From Spirochaetota bacterium (GTDB lineage Bacteria; Spirochaetota; Brachyspiria; Brachyspirales; JACRPF01), in contig JBBTBY010000026.1 of the NCBI GenBank assembly GCA_038043445.1, positions 1-33,906 of the forward strand: a stretch of DNA of 33,906 nucleotides. Direction: 5' to 3'. Position 1 is the stretch's first letter; each line of letters begins with the position of its first letter. Position numbers and translations under genes: made by a program. The notes under the pieces were generated by a model that saw nothing but the letters and a program-made list of their open reading frames with translations, did not search any database and was not told where the DNA came from. Of this stretch, positions 24,232 through 33,906 are shown one piece after another.

Positions 24232-26910
24232 CTAGAAGATGACGTTCAGGGAAAGGGTATAGCTTAGCCCGAACACTTCCTCATATTTCGCCGCGGCATC
24301 GATACGGCAGTTCATGAGGCCGATATCGAACATCACTGCGAGCCCGGCACCGACGTTGAGCATCGCGTTCACGCTGCCGATATTGTCGAGATAGGCGCCG
24401 GCGCGTACTTCAAAGAAGTCGAATATGCGGTACATGCTCCCGAACCCGATGCTGCTGTTCTCGAACGGCGAGTATCCGTAATGGAGATAAAGATAGAGGA
24501 GATTGTTCTCCACATTGATGAGATTGTAGTTCACATCGGCGCCGAACGATATCGGGAGGGGATCGCTTATCCCGCCGTAATTGTAGGGCAATCCGATATT
24601 CCTTCCGTACACGCCGAAGGCGAGCGTGTCCTTTTGTTCGTCGGTGCTGAGATAGATCATCTCCGTCACGAGCTTCTGCCACTCATAGTCCTTCATTTTG
24701 TCGGCCGTTTTCTTTTTCGCGAGCGCGACCTCGTCCGCCTTGTCAAGTGCGCTCTTCTCGACCTCCGCAGCGTACACGTCGTCGAGCTGGGCGAGCTTCT
24801 GCTTATTATCGCCGACGACCGACCGCGCGATAACGATGTCCTCAAGGGCGAGCTCGTTCTTTTTCGCATAGAGCGTTTCGATATCGGCTATCTGCCGTTT
24901 CCCCTTCCCTTCGGTCTCCGTCTTGAGCTGCTCGATGACCTCGCGCTTGGCCCGATAGATGCCGAGCAGAAGGTCGCCGAATATCACGCGTTCCTTGCTT
25001 TTGTATTCGCGCAGTCTGTCGCTTAAGCTCCCCGCATCGGCCGCGGTCATGAGGTCCAATTCCTTTTTGAGGCTTATCTTCTTCAGCTCGCGGAGCACAT
25101 CCGTCTCCCGCGCGGCGAGCGCGCTCACCTGCTGCGCAAAAATGTTCTTGAGCTCTATCTGTTTGCCGGCCGTTTCGACCGCTATCTGATCGCGATAATC
25201 GAACAGCGCCACCCGTTTCGCGAGCGATTTGATCACCTTGTCGAACAGGAGGCGTTCTACCGGCGGCATCTGGTATTTACCGAAATTCCCCATGGCACGC
25301 GATACGTTCTCGGAGAACATCCGCACACGCTCACGCTTCTGTTCGGTGACGTTCTCAAGCGGCAGTTTCAGGAACTGTCCCGCCTCCGCCTTCGCGTCCG
25401 GCTTCAGATTATTATAGCTGACGATGATCCTCGACTTCTCTTCGGTGCCGTACATCTTCCGCGCGATGGACTGATATGTCTCGTTCGTCTCAACACGGTA
25501 TTCCCGGTACCCGCGCATCTTCTCTTCCATTTCGCGCACTTTCAGCTCGCGCTCCCTGAGCGCTGCAAGATGCGCGCTGTCGGGCACTTTTATCGCATCA
25601 CCCTTCTTCACCCGCTCGGGGTTCTTCAGGGCATTGAACGCGATGAGGTACTTGACGAGATCGGCCGAGCCGTAGAATTTCTGCGCGACCGTGTTCCAGT
25701 TCTCCTTCTCGCCGAGCTCGTACGATTCCACCTTTACGCCAGTTGCATCCACCGGCGGAATGCCGGCGTCCTTGTTCGCGAGGAAATTCTCGTACTGCAC
25801 TATCAGCTGATCGACCTTGCCGAGGAGCTCCGTGTTCTTCGAATATTTCTCCAGTTTTTTCCGGTAGAAATCGATATCGACGCTGTTGTTCTCGATATCG
25901 CTCGCGGTTATCTTCGCCAGCGCCTCGCCGTTCTCCCGCACGGTATTGCTCGCGATGCCTATGAGCGATGCTATCTCGGCGGTCACGTTCGAGAGGAAGC
26001 TGCTCACATAGACCGCATCGATCTCGCGTTTCTGGTCGCGCGTGAACTCATAGAGCTTTGCCCGCGTCGCATAGACGTTCTTCACGTCCGCTTTCCGCTT
26101 CGCGTACCGGTCGTTCAGGTCCGTAAGCCCTGCCTGGCGCACGTTCTGATATTCCGCTTCCTTCGCGGTGATAGTCTCGGCCTTGAGCGTCTTGCTTTCT
26201 TTGATGCCGCGGTTCTTCGCGCGTATCTCGTCCTCGAGCAGCGCCGCCTGCACCGCACGCTCCGCTTCCACGTCCGCCTCGGTGATGAGCTGTTCGGGCA
26301 TACCGAGGTAGGGTGCCTTGAAACGCAACGTCATGTTCACATCGGCGAAGAACGTCCGCGCGGTGACATCGTCTATCGTCGATTGATAATAATTGAGGTT
26401 GACGCCGCCGGTGAACATATTGAGGAATTCAAAGAACCCGTTGCGGTTCGTCGGGTCGCTGTAGAGGTTGAGCCCATGCGAGCTGAACATGACGGGGATG
26501 CCGACCAGTATGTCGCTCGGGGTGAAATTCTGTATGACCTCGGCGCGCTCATTGCGTACGCCGAAACCGCCGTAGCCCAGGTACGTCGCATACGCACCGA
26601 AGCGCATGCCGCGGAGGAAATCGGCCTTGAGCCAGAAGAGCAGGTTCTCTGCGGCGATATCCTCGACAATGCCCTGATGGTGAAAGAATATCTCGGACTT
26701 ATCGCGTGTGCCGAATACGCTGCTGTATGTCCGGGACAGCGGGACATGCTGATCGAGGATGTCGTAGCACTTGCCCGTACCGATGACCATCGGCGCGCTG
26801 TCGTACACAAGGAGATCCGGCGAAGCGGCGAGCGGCTGAGCGGCTGTCAGCGCAGCGAACAAGGCGCCGAACGCCATCCGCAATGTTCCGTTGTATCGCA
26901 TCGTTTCCAT
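24232..26910 (-). CDS. Outer-membrane barrel protein with coiled-coil and two LysM domains inserted
   Basis: An 892-residue exported protein with signal peptide (about residues 4-29). Residues 31-200 look like the first half of a PorV/UPF0164-type outer-membrane barrel (FGAYATYLGYGGFGVRN, NFTPSDILVGIPV, FADVNMTLRFKA). Residues 205-380 are highly charged helix, probably coiled coil. Two LysM-like peptidoglycan-binding domains follow at about 394-444 (YELGEKENWNTVAQKFYG) and 471-517 (YRVETNETYQSIARKMYG), then more coiled coil to about 755. Residues 762-892 (FGVYGRNIGLPYNYGG ... YTLSLNVIF) return to barrel-like strands ending in Phe. I infer two barrel halves flanking a periplasmic wall-binding insert. 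It starts 2 nt after the giant gene, so is coupled to it; ATG 26901 is an alternative start. Exact family uncertain. Confidence 0.72.
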   Translation of the reverse strand: METMRYNGTLRMAFGALFAALTAAQPLAASPDLLVYDSAPMVIGTGKCYDILDQHVPLSRTYSSVFGTRDKSEIFFHHQGIVEDIAAENLLFWLKADFLRGMRFGAYATYLGYGGFGVRNERAEVIQNFTPSDILVGIPVMFSSHGLNLYSDPTNRNGFFEFLNMFTGGVNLNYYQSTIDDVTARTFFADVNMTLRFKAPYLGMPEQLITEADVEAERAVQAALLEDEIRAKNRGIKESKTLKAETITAKEAEYQNVRQAGLTDLNDRYAKRKADVKNVYATRAKLYEFTRDQKREIDAVYVSSFLSNVTAEIASLIGIASNTVRENGEALAKITASDIENNSVDIDFYRKKLEKYSKNTELLGKVDQLIVQYENFLANKDAGIPPVDATGVKVESYELGEKENWNTVAQKFYGSADLVKYLIAFNALKNPERVKKGDAIKVPDSAHLAALRERELKVREMEEKMRGYREYRVETNETYQSIARKMYGTEEKSRIIVSYNNLKPDAKAEAGQFLKLPLENVTEQKRERVRMFSENVSRAMGNFGKYQMPPVERLLFDKVIKSLAKRVALFDYRDQIAVETAGKQIELKNIFAQQVSALAARETDVLRELKKISLKKELDLMTAADAGSLSDRLREYKSKERVIFGDLLLGIYRAKREVIEQLKTETEGKGKRQIADIETLYAKKNELALEDIVIARSVVGDNKQKLAQLDDVYAAEVEKSALDKADEVALAKKKTADKMKDYEWQKLVTEMIYLSTDEQKDTLAFGVYGRNIGLPYNYGGISDPLPISFGADVNYNLINVENNLLYLYLHYGYSPFENSSIGFGSMYRIFDFFEVRAGAYLDNIGSVNAMLNVGAGLAVMFDIGLMNCRIDAAAKYEEVFGLSYTLSLNVIF

Positions 26911-26912
26911 AC

Positions 26913-29900
26913 CTATTTCTTCACTATCACTTTGACTTTCTTATTGTATCCATTGGGTCCGGTGATGATGCCCAGATAGAGCCCCGAGGGCGCCTTCACC
27001 CCGCCCATGGTCCCGTTCCATTCGGCGCTCTTGAACTCCGCGGTGAACGCATAATCGCCGATCTTATGCCCCATGGCGGTATAGATATGCAGCTTATAGC
27101 GCGGCAGGTCCTCGCTGCGTGTATCCTCCCTCAGGTAGACGATGAAACGTTCTCCGCGTTCCGGGTTGAAGAGCGTTTTCGTCGCAGCGCTTATCGCGTT
27201 CGCTTCCATGACGATGCCCGGCAATATCGTCGTTTCGCTCGTCGCATCCGGTGAGTAATCGTTCAGGGTGAGCGCATACTGCTGACCCTGGATATTGAGC
27301 GCCGCGAGGCCCGTCTGTTCGGATCTCCGCAGAACGAGCCGGAAACGGTCGCGTATCGTCGCATTGTCATGCATCTTCAATACGATAAGGAAGGGGCGGT
27401 CAACATTCGACAGTGCGACCGGCGTTTCAAAGAGTATCCGTATCTTATTGTCCGCTGCTATGGAGAACCCGCCGGGCACCAGACTGTCAGCGGCATCGAA
27501 CGATCCCGGGGATGTCCCGGTATCGAGATAGGTGGACACATTGCCGATGTCGTTGGTGGCCATGGCGGCGGCGAACGACGTTGCATTGCTTCCCTCGAGC
27601 GCCAGCGTGAACCCGTTGACGGAGAACACCGCATCATTATCGTTCGCGCGCATGGTAATGCGCATCGCCGCGATGCCGTTCTGCCCCTGTTTCACATACG
27701 TGGAGAGGAGCGATGACACGCTCGCGATGACGGCATTATTGTCGAGCGAGATCGGATAGACAGGATATGTCGAGAACAGCGAGGAGCGTTCGACGATGCC
27801 GCCGTTGGGGCCGCTCGCGGAAACGCGGACGATACGCAGTTCCGGCCGTGCCGCATCATTGAACGTAAGCGGGGTGAACGTGACGAAATAGCGGTCGGCG
27901 GTGGGCCGTACCGAATTCGTAATGGCGGGGAACAGTATGGTGACGACGGCATTGTCGTTCGAGATGAAGTAATTCGTTGAGATGGCGACGCCGGTCGAAT
28001 AATCGAAAGATGCCGTCGTATTGGTGTATATGCGGATGTATCCGGTGAACGGTACGTTCGTCGTGAGATTGGTGACCGTGATGCCGTACACCGTCTCGAC
28101 ATTGGCGCCTTCCGCTTCCCGGTACATATCGAACGCTGCGAGCGCGACCTGCACATTGGATATCGCCTGCACATTGCTCTGCGGATATACCTGATAGATG
28201 TACTGGTCCCAGAATTCCGCCGCAGGATCGACGACGATGATGTTGGTATACGGGAGCGGACCGTTGGTCATGCCGGTGGCGAAACCGAGCTGCGTATGCC
28301 CGTCATTGATCCTGTCCACGAACCGTATCGCGGCAGGATTCGCCCCTGCGGGTGCTATCTCAAGCCCCAAACGCTTCCCGATCATGGCGCCGACATTGTA
28401 ACCCACGAACACCGTCACCGCATTCGTCCCGGAGAGCACTATCGGGCTGTCAGCGAGGTCGAGCGTTACCCCGGCATCGTTGAAGTCGATCGCCGCGAGC
28501 GTGGTGCCGAGTTTCCCGCTGATCTTGTTTGTGGCCAGGTATACGGTGGTCGGGACATTGGCGTCCGGTGCAGCGGCATTACGTTTCACATCGACGTATC
28601 TGAGATAGTTCGTCGCATCATTGTCGTCCCCGGCGAGCGTGAACGCGATGTAGGGGTTCTTATCGCTCGATCCGTACACCGACGCGTCGATGAAGTCATT
28701 GGTCATCACGGTGACGACGACATTGTAGCTGTCGATGCGCATCACCTTCGACTGATAATCGAAGAGCGCGTTGGTGTTCTCAAAGACGTTCGTGCTGCCG
28801 GTATAGTAGAGATTGGTGATCTGGAATCCGATGCGGTCGTTCTTCGAAAGCGCTATGGTATTCGTGAGCTCGAAGACAAGATAGAATTTGTCCCCGAGGA
28901 AGGTGTTCGAGTTGTTGATCTGATCGGGCGTGCCGTCGGCGATGGTGCAGCGGATATCGAAGCTTCCCCCGGCGATGACATTGGTCCAGCCGACCAGGAT
29001 ATCCCCTGCGTCGTAGCGCGTCGATTCAAGCGATGTATTCGTGCTTTCGCGATAGAGGTATGCGATGCCGTCCACGTTCGAACTTATTGTTGACGTAAAG
29101 GTGCGCACCGCAACGCCGGTGAAGGCGTCGGCATCGTTCGTATCGTTATCGCCGTAGATGCGTATATATTCCGCCACGACCTTCTGGTTCGTGCCGAACG
29201 ATTCGGGCATATAGTTGTTCGTCGCGTCCTTCAGGTAAAAATCGAACGGATATGCCGCAAGGAGCGTGATGCGGTGATTCGATACCGACCCTGCCAGGGG
29301 AGATGCACCGGCGGCATTCGTTGCCGTCGCATTGGTCGGATAGAGCCCCCCGAGCCCGTCCGCGAAGGTAAGCGAACGTATGGCATTGGTAAGCTGCATG
29401 CCGATGGTGGCGGTGGGGGTGCCGGAGAATTTTATCTCGCACCCCACGAAGAACGTGTTCGTTCTCCCGGTCATCGGATACAGGGTCCCGAGCGAGACGA
29501 GCGCATTTTTTGTTGCATCGAAGTTCGCGAACCCGACGCTTGCGTCATTGGTGCTGTTGAACACCCCATCGCCGTCGATATCATGGAACACGCGCAATGC
29601 ACCGAGGTCGCCCATCGTCGCCGTGCCGGTGTTCGAAACGGCGATCGTAGAGAGGAAATTCGTCGCGTCGGGGTCATCGCTCAGTACGAGCACCTTCATA
29701 TTGTTGATGTATCCCGCCTGTACCGCCGGTGCATTGTTGCTCTCCATCGAGGCCGCATACACGCCCACGCGGTAATTATCCATTCTGCTCGCGATCGTCG
29801 GATTATAGCTGTTGGTGAATTTCAGGACATTGGTAACGATGGCGTTGGTGGGGCCGTCCGGGCCGATGCCGTGGATCATGGAGATGTACCCGTTCACCAG

Positions 29901-32900
29901 ATTGGTGTAGAGCCCTGCCGCGGCGCTGTTGGTCACCCGTAACGCAGCCCACAGGCGCGTCGGGTTCAACTGTACGCCGCTCAGATTGTTCTCGTTGAGT
30001 GACAGCGAGATGGGAAGGTTCGGGTTCGTGAAATTCGTTTTTGCGAGGAATTTCTCGTTCGTCTGGAAACCGTCTATCGCATTGGTCTCGCGATAGAGAT
30101 AGATCTCGCCCTGCACGTTCGAGCAGAACCCGCCGAGGCGCACATCGACATTGGTGATGCGCTGCGCGAACAGGTCCTCAAAGACATCGGCAATGAGATC
30201 GACAGAGGCGATGGGATAAATATTCGACACCGCCATCGACGCCGGTATGCCGAAATTGTTGCCGCCGTTGACGATATAGAAATCCCAGGGGTTGTTGAGG
30301 AACGATTTTATCGTGACATAATTCGTGGTCGAGGGACCGCTTGACGACCCGGCGATGTACGAATACTGCGCATAATTGTCGTCGATACCGTCCGTGAGCC
30401 CTATCGACCCGTTGGTGAGCAGAAGCCCGAAGGTGTTGCTGATGACCAATTCGCTGCCGCTCACGTCATAGCCGACGTAGAGTACCGTTTCATTGGTGCC
30501 GCTGACCGCGAGCGGGACGGAGAACGATATGCGCGTCTGCCCGTTGGTGAACGAATTGTACGAGAGCATGTTGTACGACGGATGGCTTAAGAGCTTGATG
30601 TACGGGATATGCCCGAGCGCAAAGCTCAGGTTCGACGCGTATCGGTTCGTCGTGACATCGATGTACGAGAGATAGTTGGTGCCGTCAGGATCATCGCCCG
30701 AAAGGCTTATCTTGAGATAGCGATTGTTGAACGAGGACTGCAGCGGATTGAGCGGGACCTGTTCATTCGATATGTAGTTCACCACCACGCGGCCGTTGTC
30801 GATGCGGGCAGTTCGGGAGAACGCATTGGTCAGGAGATAGAGATTGGTGAACGCCCCGAGATCGGGGCCCTGGCAGCGCATATTGGTCATCTGGAACCAG
30901 ACGGTGTTCGTTTTTGCGTCTTCAACGTTATTCGTGAGCCTGAATAGCAGATAGAACCTGTCGGGGGTATACTGATCGGAGGAAACATTCGTGAAATCGC
31001 AGTTGATCGAAAAATCAGCGCCTGCTGCAACTGCATTGCTCGCGATGAACTGATCGGCGGCGGAGAATGTGCCGTTGCCGTTCGTTTCCTTATAGAGATA
31101 GGCGTAGCCGTAGACATTCGCCTTGGATGTTATTGTCCCGACCTTGACATCGACCCCCTTGAATACCTGTATGTTCGTTTCCTCGGTATCCATGAAGATA
31201 TCGAACGAACCGGCAACGACGCCCTGATTGGAGGAGAAGCTTGCCGGCATCATGGAGTAGGTGAGCCCGTAGAGGGAGTAGTCGAACGGCCGCGAGGTAT
31301 AGGGGATGAGCCGGTTCGTCGCCGGGATATTCCCCATCGGGAACGTACCGATGATGACGGGTGCCGCGGGGGAGTGCTCGTCGCCGTACGGGTCGCCGAA
31401 GATAAGGTTGGACGCCGCGAGCACCTTGAGCGCCACCGTGCTTCCCACCGTGCCGTTGAGCTCGGTATCATATACGCCGTAAAACGTCTTTGCGGTCGTA
31501 TTGACGATCTCGAACGCCGGGAACACGGATAGCGAGTATAACTTTCCGCCGCTTATCGAGCCGGCCATGATGGACGGATCGGCGCCGACCTCAAGACCGT
31601 CATTATCCTGATCGTAAAAGAGCTTGAGATACCCTACATCGGTATTCGACGCCGTTCCGGAATTGGTGAGGACAAATCCCTGGAAATAATTGGTGGCATC
31701 GGGATCGTTGTTCGATATGACCATCCTGAACTGCAGGTTATTGAACGAGCCCTGTTTCACCCGCTCTTCGGTGGTATTGGTGTAGTAATATACGTAGAGC
31801 TGATGCGTATCGACGCGCGATATACGCAGATCGCCCGTGGTGATGGAGCCGGCATTTTCCACGAGCGTCGGTCCCGGGCCGGGGCCGGTCACCGTAATAT
31901 CGTTCACGCGGATGCGGACGGTATCCGAGTATATGGCCGAAGCGGTATTGGTTATCTGCATCGCCAGCCAATAGCGCGTGGGCGACAGCGGGTTTATCGA
32001 TTGATTCGTCTCCGGCACGGTGAACGCGTTGAAAACGTTCGTTGCTGACGTCGTCGATATGTTCAGCATTTTCACGAGCATTTCATTGGTGGTGAAATTG
32101 GTGCGCAGTCCGTTGGTATCGCGGTAGAGATACAGCTGCCCGCGGAGGTCGGTATAATTGCCCTCGAGGCATATCGTGGTCGAAAGCATCTCTTCCGTAA
32201 CACCCTCGCCGTCGCGTCGCACCTCGAAATAGCCCATCGGCACTATGTTCGATATGCCGAGCGAAACGGGGGCGGTATTGCCCGCGCTGATGACCATGAA
32301 ATCCCACGGATTGACGATGAGCGCCGGCATCACTTTGACGATCTGGTTTTTGTACGTTTCGTTCGTGAGCGTCGTCCCGTTGCTGAGCGCCTGCGATGTC
32401 GGCGTCGTTTTATCGACCCACGAACGCATGTTGGTGCCTGTGGTGTTCTCAAGCGGCGTACCCCATACCTCGAAGGAGATGACATCGAGCCCGCCGGGAT
32501 TGAACGATGCGCTTTCATTCGTATAATAGATCAAAATGCAGTTCGAACTTATGCCGGGGATTCCGTTCGTCACGAACACATTGCCGCTCTCGTTCGCGCC
32601 GAGAAGCACCGAATCGATATTGGATATCGCGCAATTGGTGAACATGTACGGTATCTCGATGGCCGCCTGCTTTATCGGCGAGGTGAAATTCGTTTTCGCC
32701 TGGATATAATACGTGAACGAATAATACGCGGCACCGATGGTTATCTGCCCGGGCTTCACGCTCCCGTACGCGCTCACCGGGCCGGAAGGCTCGCGCAGCG
32801 TCACGTTCTGCCCGCCCGTTGTCCGCTGCCACCCGCAGGTCGAGTAATTGCTCACCGCCCCCTGATTCGTTATCTTCGGATCGAACAGCGGCGCATCCAC

Positions 32901-33026
32901 CTTGGAAGAAAATGCAAATGTACCGATATTGCTGATGCCCGGGTGCATATCGGCGATCACCATGAAATTCTTGTGTTGTGTTGTGTCGTGTTCGTTGCGT
33001 TTATCATGGCGCCGAGGCGTATCCAC
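26913..33026 (-). CDS. Giant repeat surface protein, 3' (main) part, frameshifted from upstream part
   Basis: The frame is open for 2,037 codons but its possible starts (GTG 33026, ATG 32963) have no ribosome site or signal peptide, and the 5' part of the protein is in another frame (see 32957-33906). Numbering from 33026, five copies of a roughly 340-residue unit are seen: an opener NPWDF/RPFDY/NPWDFY/YPFDFY/AAEFWDQY at 239, 579, 912, 1259 and 1602, a LYLYRxTN phrase about 60 residues later, and a DDPDATNYL-like phrase at 440, 778, 1117, 1467 and 1796. It is rich in Asn and Thr. Residues about 1953-2037 resemble the FlgD Ig-like/C-terminal sorting domain (WNGTMGG, PSGLYLGI). Likely secreted and surface-exposed; substrate or partner unknown. 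Confidence 0.72.
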   Translation of the reverse strand: MDTPRRHDKRNEHDTTQHKNFMVIADMHPGISNIGTFAFSSKVDAPLFDPKITNQGAVSNYSTCGWQRTTGGQNVTLREPSGPVSAYGSVKPGQITIGAAYYSFTYYIQAKTNFTSPIKQAAIEIPYMFTNCAISNIDSVLLGANESGNVFVTNGIPGISSNCILIYYTNESASFNPGGLDVISFEVWGTPLENTTGTNMRSWVDKTTPTSQALSNGTTLTNETYKNQIVKVMPALIVNPWDFMVISAGNTAPVSLGISNIVPMGYFEVRRDGEGVTEEMLSTTICLEGNYTDLRGQLYLYRDTNGLRTNFTTNEMLVKMLNISTTSATNVFNAFTVPETNQSINPLSPTRYWLAMQITNTASAIYSDTVRIRVNDITVTGPGPGPTLVENAGSITTGDLRISRVDTHQLYVYYYTNTTEERVKQGSFNNLQFRMVISNNDPDATNYFQGFVLTNSGTASNTDVGYLKLFYDQDNDGLEVGADPSIMAGSISGGKLYSLSVFPAFEIVNTTAKTFYGVYDTELNGTVGSTVALKVLAASNLIFGDPYGDEHSPAAPVIIGTFPMGNIPATNRLIPYTSRPFDYSLYGLTYSMMPASFSSNQGVVAGSFDIFMDTEETNIQVFKGVDVKVGTITSKANVYGYAYLYKETNGNGTFSAADQFIASNAVAAGADFSINCDFTNVSSDQYTPDRFYLLFRLTNNVEDAKTNTVWFQMTNMRCQGPDLGAFTNLYLLTNAFSRTARIDNGRVVVNYISNEQVPLNPLQSSFNNRYLKISLSGDDPDGTNYLSYIDVTTNRYASNLSFALGHIPYIKLLSHPSYNMLSYNSFTNGQTRISFSVPLAVSGTNETVLYVGYDVSGSELVISNTFGLLLTNGSIGLTDGIDDNYAQYSYIAGSSSGPSTTNYVTIKSFLNNPWDFYIVNGGNNFGIPASMAVSNIYPIASVDLIADVFEDLFAQRITNVDVRLGGFCSNVQGEIYLYRETNAIDGFQTNEKFLAKTNFTNPNLPISLSLNENNLSGVQLNPTRLWAALRVTNSAAAGLYTNLVNGYISMIHGIGPDGPTNAIVTNVLKFTNSYNPTIASRMDNYRVGVYAASMESNNAPAVQAGYINNMKVLVLSDDPDATNFLSTIAVSNTGTATMGDLGALRVFHDIDGDGVFNSTNDASVGFANFDATKNALVSLGTLYPMTGRTNTFFVGCEIKFSGTPTATIGMQLTNAIRSLTFADGLGGLYPTNATATNAAGASPLAGSVSNHRITLLAAYPFDFYLKDATNNYMPESFGTNQKVVAEYIRIYGDNDTNDADAFTGVAVRTFTSTISSNVDGIAYLYRESTNTSLESTRYDAGDILVGWTNVIAGGSFDIRCTIADGTPDQINNSNTFLGDKFYLVFELTNTIALSKNDRIGFQITNLYYTGSTNVFENTNALFDYQSKVMRIDSYNVVVTVMTNDFIDASVYGSSDKNPYIAFTLAGDDNDATNYLRYVDVKRNAAAPDANVPTTVYLATNKISGKLGTTLAAIDFNDAGVTLDLADSPIVLSGTNAVTVFVGYNVGAMIGKRLGLEIAPAGANPAAIRFVDRINDGHTQLGFATGMTNGPLPYTNIIVVDPAAEFWDQYIYQVYPQSNVQAISNVQVALAAFDMYREAEGANVETVYGITVTNLTTNVPFTGYIRIYTNTTASFDYSTGVAISTNYFISNDNAVVTILFPAITNSVRPTADRYFVTFTPLTFNDAARPELRIVRVSASGPNGGIVERSSLFSTYPVYPISLDNNAVIASVSSLLSTYVKQGQNGIAAMRITMRANDNDAVFSVNGFTLALEGSNATSFAAAMATNDIGNVSTYLDTGTSPGSFDAADSLVPGGFSIAADNKIRILFETPVALSNVDRPFLIVLKMHDNATIRDRFRLVLRRSEQTGLAALNIQGQQYALTLNDYSPDATSETTILPGIVMEANAISAATKTLFNPERGERFIVYLREDTRSEDLPRYKLHIYTAMGHKIGDYAFTAEFKSAEWNGTMGGVKAPSGLYLGIITGPNGYNKKVKVIVKK

Positions 33027-33906
33027 AGCTCATTGCCGTTCGTGCGAAGTACACATTCACCGCGGTTGATATAGCGATTGCGCGTATTCGTGAAGTCGGC
33101 ATAGGAAACATTGGTGTTCGTCTCAATAAGCGTGCCGTCTTCCATGTAATCGGAAATAACATACACCTTGGATGTGTCCCATCCGTAATTGCTCCATGCG
33201 TCGGGCTTCGATATGGTGATCACATTGATGCCCGCATTCGAAGCGTAGATGCCGTTCGCAAAATTGAACTGCAGCCTTCGAAGATCGGTGGAATTCGAAC
33301 TTTGGTCCTCCGAATCGATCGATACGCTCATTGCAGATGAATCGGCGGCCGAGCGTATCATGAAGGAGCCGAACCGTGCATCACAGGACGAGTTCTTGTT
33401 GCGCACTTCCTCGTTTATCATAAAACGGATATTGTTCGTGAACGATACCGGGAAATTTCCGACAAAACAGTACTCATTCGGGTGGGCGTCATTGTTGTCG
33501 GGGTCGGGGTTGAAATAGAACGACACCGAGGACCCGTCATGCGTCGCCATGAGCGCGACATTCGTGTTCACTATAGTGCCGACCGTCACATTCACGGTAA
33601 GCGAATGGAAATTTGCAAGATTCGTTGCTGACCCGTCCGGGCGTATCGCATTCGACAGATTGAGCTTGATATCCGCGCCATTGACAAATGCCCCGAAAAA
33701 GTTATCCGGGGTGTCCCCATTCTTTGCTGAATAGAAATACATCACCCGTGTAAGGAACGCCATGTAATTGGCATTGTAGAGCGAAAGGTCGGTAAGGGCG
33801 TCTTCAACGACCCATAATCCGAAATCTGCAGCCTCAACAACGGGACTCGCCCCGTTCGCAGAAATAGTCCATCCGCGGACATCGAGCATCGCCCCGACGG
33901 GGATGG
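32957..33906 (-). CDS. Giant repeat surface protein, 5' part (start outside window; frameshifted)
   Basis: The frame enters from beyond the window edge (PVGAMLDVRGWTISANG) and runs about 316 codons to TGA at 32957-32959. The sequence (SFYFNPDPDNNDAHPNEY, MIRSAADSSAMSVSIDSED, WIRLGAMINATNTTQH) has the same Asn/Ser/Thr-rich secreted character as the next frame. It overlaps that frame by 70 bp. Removing one 5-bp unit of the repeat tract at 32973-32992 would join them as NTTQHKNFMVIADMHPG, a sensible continuation. I therefore take this as the 5' part of one gene of at least about 2,300 codons, interrupted by an indel, a phase-variable repeat, a programmed +1 shift or a sequence error. The signal peptide should lie outside the window. 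Confidence 0.68.
   Translation of the reverse strand, partial: IPVGAMLDVRGWTISANGASPVVEAADFGLWVVEDALTDLSLYNANYMAFLTRVMYFYSAKNGDTPDNFFGAFVNGADIKLNLSNAIRPDGSATNLANFHSLTVNVTVGTIVNTNVALMATHDGSSVSFYFNPDPDNNDAHPNEYCFVGNFPVSFTNNIRFMINEEVRNKNSSCDARFGSFMIRSAADSSAMSVSIDSEDQSSNSTDLRRLQFNFANGIYASNAGINVITISKPDAWSNYGWDTSKVYVISDYMEDGTLIETNTNVSYADFTNTRNRYINRGECVLRTNGNELWIRLGAMINATNTTQHNTRISW
32973..32992 (-). repeat. Pentanucleotide tandem repeat at the frameshift
   Basis: Read on the minus strand, the unit AACAC occurs four times in tandem with one variant (AACAC, GACAC, AACAC, AACAC). Because the unit is 5 bp, loss or gain of one copy changes the reading frame. It sits inside the 70-bp overlap of the two frames of the giant gene. 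Confidence 0.8.

Follow-up and report, generated by a model that had tools for sequence, protein, structure and literature searches.

A LysM-bearing insert in a predicted FadL-family barrel of Spirochaetota, and its candidate role as shuttle and wall anchor of a neighbouring giant surface protein

Can a long, wall-binding stalk be carried inside an outer membrane barrel, and what would such a protein do for the cell? The question is raised by a gene of a Spirochaetota bacterium, located at 24232-26910(-) in a 33,906 nt stretch of DNA (the window). The open reading frame (ORF) encodes 892 aa and begins with a signal-peptide-like N-terminus (residues 1-30; 26821-26910(-)), recognized from the sequence; in the second of the two structural models described below this region is a helix at residues 6-22 followed by a low-confidence stretch. 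A first-pass annotation had proposed barrel-like strands at residues 31-200 and 762-892, separated by about 560 residues of charged helix and two LysM-like domains. The architecture stands, and the boundaries have been revised: the barrel parts run from about residue 31 to 204 and from about 756 to 892, and the insert comprises about 551 residues. The window protein taken alone had no match in the PDB by phmmer, no match in a scan of the genome contigs, and LysM as its sole match in Pfam.

The two ends were identified with a profile made from 36 intact PorV-type barrels of Spirochaetota, from which a fragment of the LysM-insert family (L053) was left out. The profile matches the window protein twice (full E-value 4.5e-14), aligning residues 23-198 with profile positions 22-178 and residues 755-892 with positions 181-312. 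None of six reversed and none of 300 shuffled controls was reported at an E-value of 10 or better. Profile-profile comparison found the same seam, with values of 97.6% for the N-terminal part (E-value 3.5e-12) and 98.4% for the C-terminal part (E-value 9.5e-15). The 20 intact spirochaetal PorV-type relatives that were aligned jointly with it all span both halves, have no residues in the insert columns and carry a short turn at the seam. The profile of intact barrels also matches PorV, at an E-value of 1.1e-34.

Two AlphaFold models were made. Model 1 was given only nine sequences of the LysM-barrel family. It has a mean pLDDT of 71, with a poor N-terminal part, and aligns as one barrel to PorV (Z 14.8, 247 residues), a score shared by PelB and OmpG-type barrels. 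Model 2 was given the family plus the 20 intact relatives, so it leans on intact barrels by construction; it has a mean pLDDT of 87 and a pTM of 0.68. Here the barrel has 14 strands, six before the insert and eight after it. The N-terminal part (residues 31-204; 26299-26820(-)) contains hatch helices at 32-44 and strands 1-6 at residues 73-80, 86-93, 102-112, 132-143, 166-179 and 182-197, while strands 7-14 lie within residues 763-891 of the C-terminal part (residues 756-892; 24235-24645(-)). Model 1 was built without the intact barrels and yet agrees with model 2. The best solved match to model 2 is PorV of the type IX secretion system (T9SS) (8gl6_F; Z 28.5, rmsd 3.8 over 288 residues, model residues 22 to 892), closely followed by PorV 6h3i_F (Z 28.3). 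FadL, CymD and TodX score Z 24-26 and unrelated porins under 18. A Foldseek search with the whole model was led by the coiled-coil proteins SMC and Rad50, which are not relatives, and the structural-aligner comparison was used in its place.

Both models align with PorV and FadL from one end to the other. The supposition that the two ends are outer membrane strands is thus borne out, with predicted strands at 73-197 and 763-891 that close into one barrel rather than forming two domains. The product of the ORF is, as modeled, a single 14-stranded FadL-family barrel interrupted by an insert, and this anatomy is well supported by prediction. The NCBIfam profile PorV_fam (NF033709) gives 22.9 bits over two stretches, one of them at residues 758-813, which is below its curated cut-off of 90. 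We therefore class the protein as a FadL-family barrel whose nearest match is PorV, and not as PorV itself. In the hatch of the intact barrels N56 is invariant and P57 nearly invariant, forming the NPA motif of FadL/PorV barrels. The LysM-insert members have a conserved R-T-Y-S-like stretch in place of this motif (within 26299-26820 in the window). Given this replacement, the sequences suggest that the hatch of the LysM-insert barrels may differ from that of FadL and PorV.

The insert (residues 205-755) consists in model 2 of a helical arm, a LysM-like unit at 394-443, a helix at 445-466, a second LysM-like unit at 468-517 and a second helical arm. Arm 1 (residues 205-385; 25756-26298(-)) is 33% charged and contains helices at 211-238, 244-291, 299-356 and 360-381. 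Arm 2 (residues 521-755; 24646-25350(-)) is 36% charged, with helices at 521-543, 550-622, 626-699 and 703-753. The longest single helices have 73-74 residues, or about 11 nm at 0.15 nm per residue. Both LysM-like units are folded beta-alpha-alpha-beta in model 2. LysM domain 2 (residues 467-520; 25351-25512(-)) matches Pfam LysM at residues 471-517 with an E-value of 8.9e-4, its 19.6 bits being just below the cut-off of 20.9. LysM-like domain 1 (residues 390-447; 25570-25743(-)) is also below the Pfam cut-off and is identified by fold and alignment only. Pfam LysM was found in six of the nine family sequences (best E-value 8.3e-6). The number of LysM domains varies within the family: there are two in the window protein and in the G040 member, and one in most other members, domain 1 being absent from the paralogues in G001 and in the window's own genome. 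LysM domains are typical wall binders. Those of the insert would bind peptidoglycan, and barrel and insert together would form a strut from the outer membrane to the cell wall.

On which side of the membrane does the insert lie? The last strand of FadL/PorV-type barrels ends in the periplasm, so that the C-terminus is periplasmic, and a terminal phenylalanine is usual for such barrels; the last residue of the window protein is a phenylalanine. With a periplasmic C-terminus and eight strands after the insert, strand parity in the model assigns the insert to the turn that links strands 6 and 7 on the periplasmic side. Another family of split barrels has a coiled-coil-only insert in which LysM is not detectable (L016:14133-17663, L055:6353-9154 and L057:354-3212). 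Its seam lies at profile position 180-183, about the same as in the LysM family; this placement rests on an earlier version of the profile that contained the LysM-family fragment L053, and in L016 only the break on the N-terminal side is that precise. The coiled-coil-only barrels in L016 and L055 are preceded by two proteins with C-terminal domains (CTDs) of the kind described below, in the same order. Given the one or two LysM domains of the LysM family and this apparently related coiled-coil-only version, the stalk may have functions besides wall binding.

The LysM-insert barrel is a family with eight loci in four Spirochaetota genomes. The window protein is conserved end to end in five full-length relatives (28-53% identity), in addition to fragments from G070, and its relatives have no internal stops. 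Of the five full-length relatives, one is encoded in the window's own genome (G000), three in G001, a genome of the same family as the window's, and one in G040; G070 has two fragmented copies. The four genomes belong to distant parts of Spirochaetota, and the order of domains is constant among them. Strong full-length matches occur in only these 4 of the 392 Spirochaetota genomes sampled. Weaker matches in the 392 are mostly LysM domains alone or ordinary PorV-type barrels.

The barrel gene does not stand alone. A giant ORF (26913-33026(-)) lies directly upstream on the same strand, 2 nt away, and encodes a repeat-rich secreted protein that is the probable cognate cargo. The window's copy is broken by a frame change within 32957-33026, either a true break or an assembly error, where it meets the upstream part of the same gene in another frame (32957-33904(-)), which reaches the contig end. 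In G001 the region matching this break is open, and the protein has 3110 aa. All LysM-barrel loci share the arrangement of a same-strand secreted CTD protein directly upstream, with a gap of -112 to +11 nt in those loci whose two genes are complete. These upstream proteins are giant and repetitive, and their C-termini resemble T9SS type A sorting domains or FlgD-type Ig domains. The CTDs of two other direct partners match TIGR04183 (E-values 9e-4 and 4e-3), as do CTD proteins beside related barrels (1e-3 to 5e-7). The C-terminal 92 aa of the window cargo (26916-27191(-)), a candidate T9SS type-A-like sorting domain, had no match in NCBIfam and are linked to the neighbours' CTDs by alignment.

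In the loci read, a same-strand CTD protein lies directly upstream of 26 of 32 PorV-type barrels, versus 6 of 141 background genes. With fragments and the loci that seeded the CTD profile removed, the pairing is found for 18 of 22 barrels. Among seven barrels, barrel identities correlate with those of the partner CTDs (r 0.94, permutation p 0.0018). Part of this correlation comes from the common descent of adjacent genes; it means that the pairs stayed together and does not imply binding. Three other genomes (G041, G053 and G063) show a large expansion of paralogues, with 56-74 PorV-type barrel matches per genome, and most of their barrels that were read directly follow the gene of a secreted protein with a CTD. 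C-terminal tails of TPR-like repeats, which recall the TPR portion of PorE, occur in further barrel or neighbouring proteins of the genomes studied (L056:4295-5830, L057:5840-9370, L099:2806-4392, L102:1733-2971 and L104:550-4653).

The T9SS has been described as restricted to Bacteroidota (PMC4793230; PMC12618676). The profile of its translocon protein SprA/Sov (TIGR04189) matches large proteins, mostly of 1,850-2,300 aa, in 83 of the 392 Spirochaetota genomes. The matches often include several colinear stretches and always score below the curated cut-off of 200; colinear matches in proteins of 1,900-2,300 aa have 73-140 bits. SprA-like proteins are found in G001, G040, G041, G053 and G070. 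A copy truncated by the contig end is present in the window's genome and was found with the G001 protein as query. The candidate loci include L090:6882-13499, L091:6352-12117, L092:2174-9043 and L107:1-4407. TIGR04189 had no match in the same-order genomes G002, G017 and G018. Two profiles of the spirochaetal SprA-like proteins had no match to solved SprA, and for this reason we call these proteins candidates. The search for a PorU sortase gave matches only beyond about position 950 of the 1095-position model, in its CTD-like C-terminal region, and thus no sortase is claimed.

We propose, with a probability of roughly 0.6, that the window protein serves a type IX-like system as shuttle and anchor for one specific cargo, with its own peptidoglycan tether. 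The CTD-protein pairing in each family member, together with SprA-like proteins in the host genomes, makes such a role likelier than that of a generic strut. SprF and PorP bind and secrete cognate CTD cargo in Bacteroidota, where sprF directly adjoins its cargo gene on the downstream side and SprF/PorP genes are often so placed; for cargo that does not move, the peptidoglycan-binding PorE has been proposed as the bridge between the wall and PorP (PMC9143113; PMC12618676). On the best reading, by analogy, the window protein has an SprF/PorP-like role, and one chain would do the work of PorP plus PorE. The computations show the single barrel, its periplasmic seam by strand parity, the LysM fold, the linkage to the cargo gene and an SprA-like protein encoded by the host; that the barrel binds the CTD, docks with the translocon, holds peptidoglycan and acts as an anchor we infer. 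The giant protein encoded upstream would be exported to the periplasm, cross an SprA-like translocon by virtue of its CTD, and be received by the PorV-type barrel on its cell-surface side. The stalk would extend downward so that its LysM domains hold peptidoglycan, and the surface protein would thereby be mechanically tied to the cell wall via the barrel. Several observations weigh against this proposal: the CTD of the window cargo has no family match, the SprA-like proteins score under the curated cut-off and do not match solved SprA, a search for GldM had no hit here or in any control genome, the hatch motif differs, and the LysM count varies beside the coiled-coil-only version.

The chief alternative is a general tether between outer membrane and wall, or a porin, with a role like that of OmpM, SlpA or OmpA, to which the upstream CTD gene would be merely an old neighbour. 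OmpM and SlpA do tether the outer membrane by a barrel, a coiled coil and a wall-binding domain (PMC10628300; PMC9388160). The presence of flagellin genes also makes periplasmic flagella in the envelope probable, and with them a long tether would be favoured. We nevertheless think this explanation unlikely: a CTD protein is directly upstream in all loci, including several paralogue pairs, the divergence of the CTDs is correlated with that of the barrels, the closest fold is a T9SS shuttle and not a porin, and strong matches in only 4 of 392 sampled genomes would be odd for a general role. An alternative that we rate lower still has the barrel as an SprF-like carrier of a moving adhesin, its stalk joined to a periplasmic motor or track instead of being fixed to the wall. 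SprF carries the mobile giant adhesin SprB, which is encoded beside it (PMC9143113), the upstream proteins here are likewise giant and repetitive, and the coiled-coil-only sister family would suit a protein-protein link. Against it are the LysM domains, as typical wall binders, and the finding of no GldM-type motor component in these genomes, by a search that matched no control genome either.

Two further explanations concern the protein itself. LysM domains can bind chitin-type glycans besides peptidoglycan, and an outward-facing insert could use them to attach to host glycan or to that of other cells. This is very improbable, as the predicted six plus eight strands put the seam on the same face as the periplasmic C-terminus, and that seam is a short turn in intact relatives. 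Weak NCBIfam and Pfam matches, taken alone, would suit a protein of two independent domains, or one created by fusion or misassembly. The constant order in four genomes that are spread widely over the phylum, and the one closed barrel predicted, refute that idea for practical purposes.

How does the shuttle and anchor that we propose compare with known systems? The best structural match is PorV (PDB 6H3I, 8GL6; Z 28), also a 14-stranded FadL-family barrel with an N-terminal hatch, and the intact relatives of the window barrel match its sequence at 1e-34. PorV lacks the 551-residue LysM insert and keeps the NPA motif, and it serves all type A cargo, whereas the window barrel is apparently dedicated to the neighbouring one. 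Cargo-specific by gene pairing, and encoded directly downstream of a giant CTD surface protein, are the SprF/PorP-like shuttles (PMC12618676; PMC9143113); however, their cargo has type B CTDs and the CTDs here are type-A-like, and the wall-binding part is built into the window barrel. PorE, acting with PorP, similarly links a FadL-family shuttle to peptidoglycan (PMC9143113; PMC7192894), but is a separate lipoprotein and not a barrel insert, with a wall-binding domain that is not described as LysM.

Anchoring of outer membrane barrels by LysM or SLH domains is already known, with the anchor N-terminal. OmpM of Veillonella and SlpA of Deinococcus combine a barrel, a coiled-coil stalk and a wall-binding domain in one chain (PMC10628300; PMC9388160). 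Their stalk and SLH domain precede the barrel, which is trimeric and not of FadL type; the stalk of the window protein is inside the barrel, and Pfam gave no SLH match in it or its family. The inverse autotransporters intimin and YeeJ display a large adhesin from a barrel with a periplasmic, peptidoglycan-binding LysM (PMC5595812). Their LysM is N-terminal and the adhesin is in the same chain, whereas the window protein carries no C-terminal passenger, strand 14 ending at residue 891 in model 2. The first-pass annotation knew of no described protein with the order barrel-LysM-LysM-barrel. We likewise found no report of that order, or of a FadL-type barrel with an anchor in one of its periplasmic turns, in the open-access full-text literature, a weak negative.

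The split barrel suggests that a FadL-type barrel tolerates an insert of 550 residues in a periplasmic turn, and that the coiled-coil-only family uses the same turn. The surroundings of the barrel gene point to a T9SS-related system in Spirochaetota, contrary to the papers that confine the T9SS to Bacteroidota, and such a system may be the larger finding. The protein also bears on the means by which T9SS-type adhesins withstand mechanical load. The Bacteroidota proposal for non-mobile cargo is the PorP-PorE bridge, and a shuttle and wall anchor in a single chain would make that proposal directly testable. More tentatively, and at somewhat below even odds, a lineage of Spirochaetota may provide each giant surface protein with its own barrel as shuttle, surface anchor and wall tether, with the anchor in a periplasmic turn, so that the cargo would be bound permanently without attachment to lipid or LPS.
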